In this document: piece after piece, positions 11,476-47,962 of the stretch
Layout: every line of letters begins with the position of its first letter
How positions within the stretch are numbered: the stretch's first letter is position 1
From: Roseobacter sp.
GTDB taxonomy: Bacteria; Pseudomonadota; Alphaproteobacteria; Rhodobacterales; Rhodobacteraceae
Direction: 5' to 3'
DNA length: 54,404 nt
Assembly: GCA_018500125.2 (NCBI GenBank)
Contig: JAHBAM020000008.1
Span: 1 to 54,404, forward strand
The notes under the pieces: generated by a model
Database searches by the model: none
What the model was told of the DNA's origin: nothing
Seen by the model: the letters and a program-made list of their open reading frames with translations, nothing else
Made by a program: the position numbers and the translations under genes

Positions 11476-11549
11476 GAGAAAAGCCTGCCTGAGCAGGGTG
11501 AATAAGTGGTTAATTTTGTAAAGGTTAACGATTCGATTTTAAAAAATTA

Positions 11550-11593
11550 GGGGGGTGATATGCGTGCACAACCCGTGCACCATGCGTGCACCG
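11550..11593 (+). repeat. dispersed 44-nt intergenic element, copy 1 (three 11-bp-phased GTGCAC palindromes)
   Basis: GGGGGGTGATATGC-GTGCAC-AACCC-GTGCAC-CATGC-GTGCAC-CG; GTGCAC at 11564, 11575, 11586; 38/44 matches by hand alignment to copy 2. Confidence 0.85.
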
Positions 11594-11648
11594 CCTATTT
11601 GAAACGGCGCAAAAGAGCAGGTGTGAAGGCTGCGTGCGGTCCTTGTTA

Positions 11649-16249: not shown

Positions 16250-17067
16250 CGGCGGGCGCTCCAAGACAGGCTTGCGTGGCGACGGGTATAAAACTCGCCC
16301 ATGAGACCCACCATAATCAGCACCAACCCCACCACGAAAGCATACTCCCAATGGGTATAGCGGGGGTTGTAATTGATGAAGGCAAAGCCGCGGGACTGGT
16401 CAATGATGTGAAACAGCGGGTTCCAGTCAAACATCGAGAGCATATAGCCGGGCAATGTATTGGCGACGAACATCTTGCCGGAGGCGATCATATTGGCGCG
16501 CTGGTAAATCAGCGTGAATGTGGCAACAAACCCCGGAAACCACGGCTTGATCGCGAGAAGCACCATCCCGACAGCGCAGCCAGTGAACCACGCCAGAAGG
16601 AGCATCCCCATCGCCGCGATCGGGCGGTCAATCGTGAAGCTCTGGACGGCCATATAATAGCCGAACAGAATGACGAAGGCCGAGAGAATTTGAAGATAGA
16701 GCGAGGACAGGGCCGAAGCGGCGATCGCGACGATTGTATTCATCGGGGCGTGCAGCATCATCGGAGACGACGGACCAGCAGCGCCAGACACCGCCCCCAC
16801 AGCCTTCACATGGGTCATGTAAAGGAAGATCCCTGTCATGATATAGACGAGAAAGTCGCCGCGCAAGGCCGCGCCGCGCAGGCCGAGAAGCGAGAACATG
16901 ATATAAAACGCCAGCACCATCACAGCCATTTGCATGAGATTGGTGACGAGTGACATGATCGCATTGCCATGCGAGGATCGGATGGAATGCACCACCGAAT
17001 GATAGATCAGCTCGAAGATAATGAGGGCCGAAGTGAGCGCCGACCTGCGCCGCCTAACCTGAAACAT
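16246..17067 (-). CDS. ABC-2 type polysaccharide/polyol phosphate export permease (KpsM/Wzm-like)
   Basis: 273 aa, about six hydrophobic segments; FDWNPLFHIIDQSRGFAFINYNPRYT near the C-terminus, typical of this family. Confidence 0.88.
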   Translation of the reverse strand: MFQVRRRRSALTSALIIFELIYHSVVHSIRSSHGNAIMSLVTNLMQMAVMVLAFYIMFSLLGLRGAALRGDFLVYIMTGIFLYMTHVKAVGAVSGAAGPSSPMMLHAPMNTIVAIAASALSSLYLQILSAFVILFGYYMAVQSFTIDRPIAAMGMLLLAWFTGCAVGMVLLAIKPWFPGFVATFTLIYQRANMIASGKMFVANTLPGYMLSMFDWNPLFHIIDQSRGFAFINYNPRYTHWEYAFVVGLVLIMVGLMGEFYTRRHASLSWSARR

Positions 17068-40737: not shown

Positions 40738-42447
40738 ATGCCCGTTGAAATCCCCCGCGCGCAATATGCCGCCATGTATGGCCCGACAACGGGCGACCGT
40801 CTGCGCCTTGCCGATACCGATCTGGTCATCGAGGTCGAGCGCGACCTGACCACCTATGGCGAAGAAGTGAAGTTCGGCGGCGGCAAGACCATCCGCGACG
40901 GCATGGGCCAATCGCAAGTCACCCGCGCGGGCGGGGCCGTCGACACGGTGATCACCAATGCGCTGATTGTGGATCACTCGGGCATCTACAAGGCCGATGT
41001 GGCGCTCAAGGACGGCTTGATCCACGCCATCGGCAAGGCCGGAAACCCCGACACGCAATCCGGCGTTGATATCATCATCGGCCCTGGCACAGAGATCATC
41101 GCCGGGGAAGGCCGTATTCTGACAGCGGGCGGGATGGACAGCCATATCCACTTTATATGCCCCCAGCAGATGGACGACAGTCTGCACTCCGGCGTCACCA
41201 CCTGCTTTGGCGGCGGCACTGGCCCAGCGCATGGCACGCTGGCCACAACCTGCACACCCGGCCCCTGGCATATCGGGCGGATGCTACAGTCTTTTGACGG
41301 TATTCCCATGAACATCGGCCTTTCGGGCAAAGGCAACGCCAGCCAGCCCGCCGCGCTTGTCGAGATGATCAAGGGCGGCGCCTGTGCGCTCAAGCTGCAT
41401 GAAGACTGGGGCACAACCCCCGCGGCGATAGATTGCTGTCTGTCGGTGGCCGACGATATGGATGTTCAGGTGATGATCCACACCGATACGCTCAACGAGA
41501 GCGGCTTTGTGGAACATACGGTCGCCGCCATGAAAGGCCGCACGATCCATGCCTTTCACACCGAAGGCGCAGGGGGCGGCCACGCGCCTGATATTATCAA
41601 GATTTGTGGCGATGCAAATGTCCTGCCCTCCTCGACCAATCCGACACGCCCCTTTACAGTGAACACGCTGGAAGAGCATCTAGATATGCTCATGGTCTGT
41701 CACCACCTCGACAAATCCATTCCCGAAGACATCGCCTTTGCCGAAAGCCGCATCCGCCGCGAGACAATTGCGGCCGAAGACATCCTGCATGACATGGGCG
41801 CCTTCTCGATCATCGTCTCTGACAGTCAGGCCATGGGGCGCGTCGGAGAAGTGATCATCCGCACATGGCAAACGGCCGATAAGATGAAAAAGCAACGCGG
41901 CCCGCTCCCTGAAGAAACCGGGGACAACGACAATATGCGCGTGCGCCGCTATATCGCGAAATACACAATCAACCCCGCGATTGCGCAGGGCGTGAGCCAT
42001 GTAATCGGCGATATCAACATCGGCAAACGCGCCGATCTGGTTTTGTGGAGTCCTGCCTTTTTCGGGGTGAAGCCCGAGATGATCCTTATGGCCGGTTCAA
42101 TCGTGGTCGCCCAGATGGGCGATCCGAACGCCTCGATCCCGACTCCGCAGCCCGTCTACAGCCGCCCGATGTTCGGCGCCTATGGCAGCGCGCTGCGCCA
42201 CAGCTCGGTGAGCTTTGTGTCAGGCGCTGCGCAAGCGGCGGGCATCGGCGAGACGTTTGGTCTGGCCAAAGAGACCGTTGCGGTGAAAAACACCCGCAAG
42301 ATCGGCAAAGCAGACATGATCCTCAACGCTGTCTTGCCCGAGGTCGATGTGCACCCCGAAACCTATGAGGTGCGTGCCGACGGTATCCTGCTCACGTGCC
42401 AACCCGCCGAAGTGCTGCCCATGGCACAGCGTTATTTCATGTTCTGA
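40738..42447 (+). CDS. ureC: urease subunit alpha
   Basis: [30 protein letters not shown] (carbamylated Lys); [21 protein letters not shown]; 569 aa. Confidence 0.99.
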
Positions 42448-46479: not shown

Positions 46480-47913
46480 ATGGCAAAGCAACCAATGCTG
46501 AAATTTGTATCTGTGGAGCGCGATATGCCTGAGAAGCGGGCGGCGGCGGCGCGGAGGCAGGACTTTGGCGAGATTTATCAGGAATATGCTCAGGCCAAGG
46601 CCGAGGAGCAGGCCAGCCGCTGTAGCCAGTGCGGGGTTCCTTATTGTCAGAACCACTGCCCGCTGCACAACAATATCCCCGATTGGCTCAACCTGACGGC
46701 GACGGGTCGCCTCAAGGAGGCCTATGAGGTCAGCCAAGCCACAAACACTTTCCCCGAGATTTGCGGGCGGATCTGCCCGCAAGACCGCCTCTGTGAGGGC
46801 AACTGTGTGATCGAGCAGTCCGGCCACGGCACTGTGACCATTGGCGCGGTGGAAAAATACATCACCGACACAGCCTGGGAAAACGGCTGGGTCACACCCG
46901 TGAACCCCGCAGAGGAGCGCCCCGAAAGTGTCGCCATCATTGGCGCCGGCCCTGGCGGGCTTGCGGCGGCAGAGCGGCTTCGGGCCGAGGGCATCCAAGT
47001 CACTGTCTATGACCGCTATGACCGCGCGGGCGGCCTGCTGACCTATGGAATCCCCGGCTTCAAGCTGGAAAAAGACGTTGTGATGCGCCGCATTGACCAG
47101 CTCGAGCAGGGCGGCGTAACGCTGAAACTGAACTGCAACATCGGCACAGACATCACTTTTGGCGCGCTGCGCGGACAGCATGACGCCGTGATTATTGCCA
47201 CGGGCGTCTATAAAACAAGGGATTTAGGCGGTGAGGGCGCCGAGGCTGAGGGGATTGTCAATGCGATCGACTATCTCACAACGTCCAACCGTCTGAGCTT
47301 TGGCGACGCTGTGCCGGAGTTTGACAGCGGCGAGTTGAATGCGGCGGGCAAAAAAGTCGTTGTCATTGGCGGCGGCGATACGGCGATGGACTGTGTGCGC
47401 ACAGCCATCCGCCAAGGCGCAGAGAGCGTCAAATGCCTCTACCGCCGTGACCGCGCCAATATGCCAGGGAGCCAGCGCGAAGTGAACAACGCCGAAGAAG
47501 AAGGCGTGATCTTTGAATGGCTGGCCGCCCCTGCGGGCTTTGTCGGTAGCCCTGTGAGCGCTGTGAAGGTCCAGAAGATGCGCCTTGGTGCGCCCGATGT
47601 GTCTGGGCGGCAAAGCCCCGAAGTGATCGAGGGAGCCGATTACAACGAGGCTGCCGACCTTGTGATCAAGGCGCTCGGCTTTGAGGCGGAAGACCTGCCG
47701 ACGCTCTGGGACACGCCCGAGCTGCCTGTGACCCGTTGGGGCACGATCAAGGCCGAATACGAGACCGGCGCGACAGAGCTGGAGGGCGTTTATGCCATTG
47801 GCGATATCGTGCGCGGGGCCTCGCTTGTTGTTTGGGCGATCCGCGACGGGCGGGATTGTGCCGATGCGATCCTGAGAAAATTTGCCGCCGTTAACAAAAT
47901 CGCGGCGGAGTGA
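46480..47913 (+). CDS. gltD: glutamate synthase small subunit
   Basis: CSQCGVPYCQNHCPLHNNIPDWL; VAIIGAGPGGLAAAERL; VVIGGGDTAMDCVRTAIRQGA; start trimmed to 46480. Confidence 0.97.
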   Translation: MAKQPMLKFVSVERDMPEKRAAAARRQDFGEIYQEYAQAKAEEQASRCSQCGVPYCQNHCPLHNNIPDWLNLTATGRLKEAYEVSQATNTFPEICGRICPQDRLCEGNCVIEQSGHGTVTIGAVEKYITDTAWENGWVTPVNPAEERPESVAIIGAGPGGLAAAERLRAEGIQVTVYDRYDRAGGLLTYGIPGFKLEKDVVMRRIDQLEQGGVTLKLNCNIGTDITFGALRGQHDAVIIATGVYKTRDLGGEGAEAEGIVNAIDYLTTSNRLSFGDAVPEFDSGELNAAGKKVVVIGGGDTAMDCVRTAIRQGAESVKCLYRRDRANMPGSQREVNNAEEEGVIFEWLAAPAGFVGSPVSAVKVQKMRLGAPDVSGRQSPEVIEGADYNEAADLVIKALGFEAEDLPTLWDTPELPVTRWGTIKAEYETGATELEGVYAIGDIVRGASLVVWAIRDGRDCADAILRKFAAVNKIAAE

Positions 47914-47918
47914 TTCTG

Positions 47919-47962
47919 GGGGGGTGATATGTGTGCACCCCCCGTGCACAACCCGTGCACCG
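47919..47962 (+). repeat. dispersed 44-nt intergenic element, copy 2 (three 11-bp-phased GTGCAC palindromes)
   Basis: GGGGGGTGATATGT-GTGCAC-CCCCC-GTGCAC-AACCC-GTGCAC-CG; GTGCAC at 47933, 47944, 47955. Confidence 0.85.

Follow-up and report, generated by a model that had tools for sequence, protein, structure and literature searches.

Few signals are known to give bacterial chromosomes a direction, and KOPS, Chi and Ter sites among them are short or clustered at the terminus. Ter sites, which are bound by Tus or by RTP, extend over tens of bp and have one permissive orientation per replichore; they are few and centred on the terminus. Regulators of the OmpR/PhoB type bind head-to-tail 11-bp repeats. 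The FtsK orienting polar sequences (KOPS, GGGNAGGG), whose consensus the FtsK gamma domain recognises, exist in Rhodobacteraceae separately from the element described below (PMC13342612), and the KOPS counts obtained here agree with this. Architecture imparting sequences (AIMS) are strand-biased, selected octamers that are similar among close relatives, occur in at least about 96 copies and become commoner towards the terminus (PMC5993296).

We analysed a window of 54,404 nt (the whole stretch of DNA under study) from the draft genome G000 (2.69 Mb, 264 contigs, 83% complete), together with related genomes including Lentibacter sp. XHP0401 (G418) and a relative with a complete 4.6-Mb chromosome and dnaA at position 1 (G637). 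The window holds two copies of an element that occurs in ~50 evenly spaced copies in some marine Rhodobacteraceae; it is an array of phased units and covers at least 41 bp. Like KOPS, the array points from the origin towards the terminus in each replichore, its G-rich strand being the leading one, and its polarity switches at the origin and the terminus. However, GGGNAGGG is absent from its consensus, and KOPS is an 8-mer with a weaker bias in the same G418 DNA (134:41). Because KOPS polarity exists separately in Rhodobacteraceae, FtsK guidance is unlikely to need the element. Strand bias on the leading strands is shared with AIMS, but the element is a long 41-bp composite with 49–57 copies, below the copy number of those octamers, and on G637 it is, if anything, denser near the origin instead of increasing towards the terminus. 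With Tus-Ter and RTP-Ter it shares one orientation along each replichore, whereas its copies consist of 11-bp repeats and are found chromosome-wide, including near the origin of G637. PhoB/OmpR tandem boxes and ParR/parC iterons are likewise 11-bp direct repeats, with ~7 bp and a 4-bp spacer and head-to-tail binding; the former stand at promoters and the latter at a single plasmid centromere, in contrast to the chromosome-wide, replication-oriented element. In the open-access literature, we found no description of GTGCAC arrays of this kind in bacteria.

Composition of the element and its conservation in Lentibacter

The first-pass annotation had reported three GTGCAC hexamers at 11-bp spacing upstream of radC and a second, near-identical copy within the window. 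The positions of the former were confirmed, and the latter was found downstream of gltD (Table 1). Copy 1 lies between two minus-strand genes, 88 bp upstream of radC and 115 bp downstream of dnaJ; copy 2 begins 19 bp beyond the gltD stop codon. The pair pattern GTGCAC-N5-GTGCAC occurs four times in the window, against 0.01 expected from shuffles. As a separate observation, the window contains Rfam matches to 5_ureB_sRNA and Ruegeria Cis2_sRNA at 40893–41180 (−) and 16351–16503 (+).

Table 1 Features of the two element copies in the 54,404-nt window.
Feature	Position	Strand	Basis
Copy 1 upstream flank, GGTTAAC and GATTC (GANTC)	11523–11534	+	Flank enrichment over 106 copies
Copy 1 5' module GGGGGGTGATATGC: G-run GGGGGG (11550–11555) and TGATATGC (11556–11563); includes degenerate first 11-bp unit	11550–11563	+	Sequence, copy alignment, G-run constraint
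Copy 1 repeat unit 1, GTGCAC	11564–11569	+	Sequence, pair pattern, interspecies constraint
Copy 1 repeat unit 2, GTGCAC, preceded by C	11575–11580	+	Sequence, pair pattern, interspecies constraint
Copy 1 repeat unit 3, GTGCAC, preceded by C	11586–11591	+	Sequence, pair pattern, interspecies constraint
Copy 1 3' flank CGCCTAT (consensus C[GC][CG]CTGA)	11592–11598	+	Profile of aligned copies
Copy 1 downstream module, end GCGTGCG; AT-rich GTTAAC...TTAAYG part degenerate here	11632–11638	+	Strict module only beside elements (17/17 in 1.17 Mb)
Copy 2 upstream GTTAAC, within gltD 3' end	47890–47895	+	Sequence; flank enrichment
Copy 2 TGATTC (GANTC), overlapping gltD stop codon	47911–47916	+	Sequence; flank enrichment
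Copy 2 5' module GGGGGGGTGATATGT	47918–47932	+	Sequence; copy alignment
Copy 2 GTGCAC x3, 11-bp spacing; gltD-downstream site conserved across genera	47933–47960	+	Pair pattern, synteny, gltD 3' regions of relatives
Copy 2 3' flank CGGCAAA	47961–47967	+	Sequence; profile

Throughout G000, 98 such pairs were detected, corresponding to exactly 49 triples, and the reversed control gave 0. Using the 41-bp consensus with up to 3 mismatches, the same 49 places were recovered, and no two-unit, four-unit or decayed GTGCAC copies were detected in G000. All 49 copies were intergenic according to gene calls made with a simple codon-usage script, in line with the intergenic, dispersed character proposed for the element, and further copies with conserved 11-bp phasing occur in relatives as well. 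Near-uniform copies numbered 49 in G000, 54 in a second genome and 57 in G418. Their neighbours are unrelated housekeeping genes, and some copies lie 80–250 bp upstream of genes. The likeness to an iteron found no support in the sense of a replication origin: plasmid iterons accompany a rep gene at the origin of replication, whereas this element has ~50 dispersed copies per genome (49 in G000) beside unrelated genes.

Alignment of the 49 copies of G000 and the 57 copies of G418 gave a composite of ~110 bp. Its 5' part is composed of GGTTAACG, ~20 bp, TGATTC or CAAAA, and then GGGGGGTGATATGC; the 3' part comprises the three GTGCAC units, C[GC][CG]CTGA, ~15 bp, and GTTAAC-GNAAATTA-NNTAAYG-NRGCGTGCG. 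The array consensus is GGGGGGTGATATGC(GTGCACNNNNC)2GTGCAC, in which the final base of the 5-nt spacers is C in 209 of 212 cases. In a register of 11 bp, it is read as three invariant 7-bp units and one degenerate 5' unit, and one array end bears an asymmetric G-run/GTGATATGC module. In 1.17 Mb, 17 strict matches to the downstream module were detected; each adjoined an element at a fixed distance, the element being an exact triple in 15 cases and a degenerate one in 2. GTTAA is present within 60 bp upstream in 89 of the 106 copies. Furthermore, 57 of the 106 copies have GANTC, the CcrM site, no more than 16 bp 5' of the G-run, against ~5 expected, which hints at a link with the replication-dependent methylation state.

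Judged by flanking genes, 42 of the 49 copies of G000 occupy the same intergenic gap in G418; the search for copies in G418 allowed 3 mismatches and may have missed a few strongly diverged ones (at most 7 of the 49). Between these syntenic pairs, the hexamers were changed at 4 of 756 positions (0.5%) and the G-run at 3 of 210, compared with 189 of 420 positions (45%) in the spacers and 37–47% in the flanks. The invariance of the hexamers is not a mere artefact of exact searching, because the 3-mismatch search gave the same 49 places and the hexamers are nearly unchanged between the species. This sequence comparison shows strong purifying selection on the element. These results agree with the first-pass annotation, which had described invariant hexamers with variable spacers and a constrained array rather than a decaying repeat: decayed copies were absent under 3 mismatches, and the spacers were free. 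Constraint and phasing also support its reading of the array as a probable protein-binding site. The gap upstream of mtnP, considered as a conserved site, was rejected; among the genomes read there, it is occupied only in G000 and G418.

Orientation and spacing along the chromosome

The order and spacing of the copies were taken from the contigs of G418, because G000 is fragmented. In 47 of 49 copies in G000 and 56 of 57 in G418, the G-run was on the leading strand as judged by local G-richness; the total of 103 of 106 copies exceeds the 85% background (P = 4e-5). Besides KOPS, the background word GGGGGTGA was less biased in the same G418 DNA (108:9 overall and ~51:9 outside elements). Arrays built of other units, which are described below, were polar as well: the ratio was 9:1 for CATATG arrays, even though they lack the G-run (~20-kb skew windows), and 9:2 and 26:4 for YGTACAC arrays in ~20-kb and 3-kb windows, respectively. 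In some relatives (e.g. SKW120 and G454), arrays are numerous and their polarity may be weak.

The complete chromosome of G637 allowed both replichores to be followed. In the regions sampled, its GC skew is positive between 0.33 and 2.4 Mb and negative between 2.6 and 4.5 Mb, with sign changes near 0.1–0.3 and 2.5 Mb. Copies on the plus strand are located at 0.30, 0.46, 1.12 and 1.85 Mb and those on the minus strand at 3.07, 3.83, 4.04, 4.38 and 4.59 Mb; the exception is an atypical, reversed copy without the G-run at 3.16 Mb, so that the polarity is 9/10. The copies are spread round the whole chromosome and also occur right by the origin, and the origin-proximal half of the arms holds 7 of the 9 polar copies, a proportion based on few copies in one genome.

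The copies are also evenly spaced. In G418, neighbouring copies were 49 kb apart on average; the CV of the gaps was 0.59, compared with 0.92 when copies were placed at random (P = 0.0002), and gaps shorter than 15 kb numbered only 2, against 10.8 expected. With gene calls from the same codon-usage script, orientation was independent of transcription, as 15 copies in codirectional gene gaps had the same direction as the genes and 14 the opposite direction. Convergent gene gaps were enriched (odds ratio 2.5, P = 0.008) and divergent gaps were depleted. On G418 contigs C3, C22, C23, C25 and C27, the orientation switched only from minus to plus, five times in all and several times in regions of weak GC skew. 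More than one origin, or assembly breaks at the converse switches, would explain this.

Repeat units in other Rhodobacteraceae

Family scans were re-centred on Lentibacter G418; a negative result (0 of 399) from a scan centred on G000 was discarded because its genomes were not Rhodobacteraceae (GC 0.29–0.48, radC ~30% identical). In an even sample from the family of G418, the GTGCAC triple was present in 16 of 397 genomes. In a separate scan of named genomes, the matches listed included Lentibacter, Leisingera, Loktanella, Tateyamaria, Thalassovita, Roseovarius, Tropicibacter, Zongyanglinia, Aestuariivita, Paracoccus and others, and several genera had only 4–11 copies. Triples of two other units were detected: CATATG in 5 of 199 genomes of the family scan (14 in G634 and 10 in G455) and YGTACAC in 6 of 397 (25 in G623 and 18 in G694). 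No sampled genome contained exact triples of more than one kind, and ~370 of the 397 Rhodobacteraceae (~90%) contained no exact triple of GTGCAC, CATATG or YGTACAC. Either the element is patchy in the family, or further unit codes are in use.

The three units occupy corresponding positions. Elements are likewise present at the gltD-downstream site of copy 2 in G637 (L268), G509 and G474, with a degenerate copy in G506, and the gltD 3' regions of other genera carry CATATG arrays with the same 5-nt spacers (L329) or YGTACAC arrays (L318). By code, this site has GTGCAC in G000, G418 and G637, CATATG in G634, G455 and G621, and YGTACAC in G694 and G623. Similarly, the site 5' of lpd has GTGCAC in G637 and L248, CATATG in L337 and L348, and YGTACAC in L400. 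The 5' flank can be common to the codes, as GGGGTATGATTTG precedes CATATG in L338 and GGCGGTATGATTTGC precedes GTGCAC in L134. Since YGTACAC is non-palindromic, an 11-bp direct repeat of ~7 fixed bp describes the common unit better than a palindrome does. The first-pass annotation, which had treated the palindrome as the essential unit, overweighted it: the same architecture is built elsewhere from a non-palindromic unit, and the GTGCAC array is equally readable as an 11-bp direct heptamer repeat. The main property of the element, its replichore-wide polarity together with its even spacing, was not visible to the author of that annotation.

Several related sequences were noted. Downstream of gltD in L305 (G510), TATGCAG/CGTGCAG/CGTGCAT units spaced 12, 12 and 11 bp lie at the orthologous place and are possibly a fourth variant of the element. 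In L310 and L316, from other Rhodobacteraceae, the gltD 3' gap contains a different inverted repeat resembling AATCCGTCC...GGACGGATT, which may belong to another dispersed element or represent a further code of the present one. Single, unannotated GTGCAC elements occur on plasmids of 120–250 kb in Sulfitobacter (L445–L447) and Leisingera caerulea (L448–L449), where the Leisingera element lies between convergent nqrF and nitronate monooxygenase genes; no obvious cognate gene was seen beside the plasmid copies. The 25 matches in viral contigs were set aside, being mostly unrelated simple 11-bp repeats. A sequence like GGTTAGGTGRCCATYCGTGCACGYTTCGTGCACGNNTGGTGCAC recurs in viral contigs L352, L357, L358, L361, L367, L369, L371 and L372, with flanks unlike those of the chromosomal element.

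Proposed role and alternative explanations

We consider it probable (roughly 0.6) that the element is a polar chromosomal binding site for a putative co-evolving DNA-binding protein with a role in replication, segregation or organisation of the chromosome. Binding of a protein is suggested because the units are frozen, the spacers are free and the units are helically phased. That this protein would act in trans and co-evolve with its sites is suggested by the genome-wide replacement of the unit at kept positions, while strict polarity and even spacing, both independent of transcription, suggest a function connected with replication, segregation or folding of the DNA. On one face of the helix, each 11-bp unit would be bound by a single subunit or dimer of a sequence-specific protein, and the bound subunits would build an oriented nucleoprotein complex. 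This complex could mark direction for a machine moving from origin to terminus, or could block that machine in one direction or serve to load it; the replisome, SMC or another translocase are candidates. On this reading, the complex would serve replication, segregation or the folding of the chromosome and not the regulation of neighbouring genes; at sites close to gene starts, a local regulatory side-effect is possible.

We place the element within the broad kind of replichore-polarised DNA signals, where there is a substantial chance that it forms a class of its own. A more specific proposal, which we make only tentatively, is that oriented, evenly spaced multi-subunit complexes set domains of ~50 kb, with the protein and its sites changing together between Rhodobacteraceae lineages. 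Such a complex might act as a roadblock in one direction or as a site of loading, in loose analogy to polar CTCF sites. A long, sparse and evenly spaced site of nearly perfect orientation, whose positions persist while its code is exchanged, would expose a new chromosome-organising protein and provide a natural system for the joint change in specificity of a DNA-binding protein and ~50 sites.

Four other explanations were weighed against this one. An operator array of a global transcription regulator, bound on head-to-tail 11-bp repeats and with the 49 neighbours as its regulon, is unlikely. Concerted turnover of the unit is what co-evolution of a transcription factor and its sites predicts, the 11-bp direct heptamer repeats resemble the pho-box layout, and the copies a short distance upstream of genes would suit an operator; nevertheless, orientation tracks replication (103/106) and not transcription (15:14), convergent gaps are enriched at the expense of divergent ones, spacing is even, and the neighbours are unrelated housekeeping genes. 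The strict leading-strand polarity would also fit a signal that a recombination or primosome enzyme recognises, in a Chi-like or primosome-assembly-like manner, in the lagging-strand template while it is single-stranded, and palindromic GTGCAC could form hairpins in single-stranded DNA. We regard this as quite unlikely, because YGTACAC is non-palindromic and yet phased at 11 bp, which argues for duplex recognition; moreover, sites of the Chi type are short and occur at far higher density.

Remnants of a small mobile element (REP or MITE-like), inserted with strand bias at replication forks, would account for many intergenic copies with a common ~110-bp composite, and fork-coupled single-strand transposition can bias the strand. 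This explanation is largely refuted and very unlikely: the scattered decayed copies and species-specific sites typical of REP and MITE sequences were not seen, 42 of the 49 positions are orthologous, constraint is confined to the units (0.5% against 45%), spacing is even, and the unit has been replaced at the same sites in other lineages. Highly improbable is an intergenic RNA structure or transcription terminator. The preference for convergent gaps and the GC-rich repeats would suit it, but RNAalifold on the copies returned a trivial helix between the invariant hexamers with essentially no covariation, neither window copy had an Rfam match, and orientation is independent of gene direction.

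Returning to the binding-site reading, the neighbourhood of the elements offered one weak candidate for the cognate binder, a BrnA-like protein whose gene is one neighbour among ~100; no further candidate was found. In L025 (G000:C58), this stand-alone ribbon-helix-helix gene (PF14384, E 5e-11) lies 80 bp 3' of an element and next to prfC, and an element is present in the upstream gap of the BrnA-like gene in two genomes.
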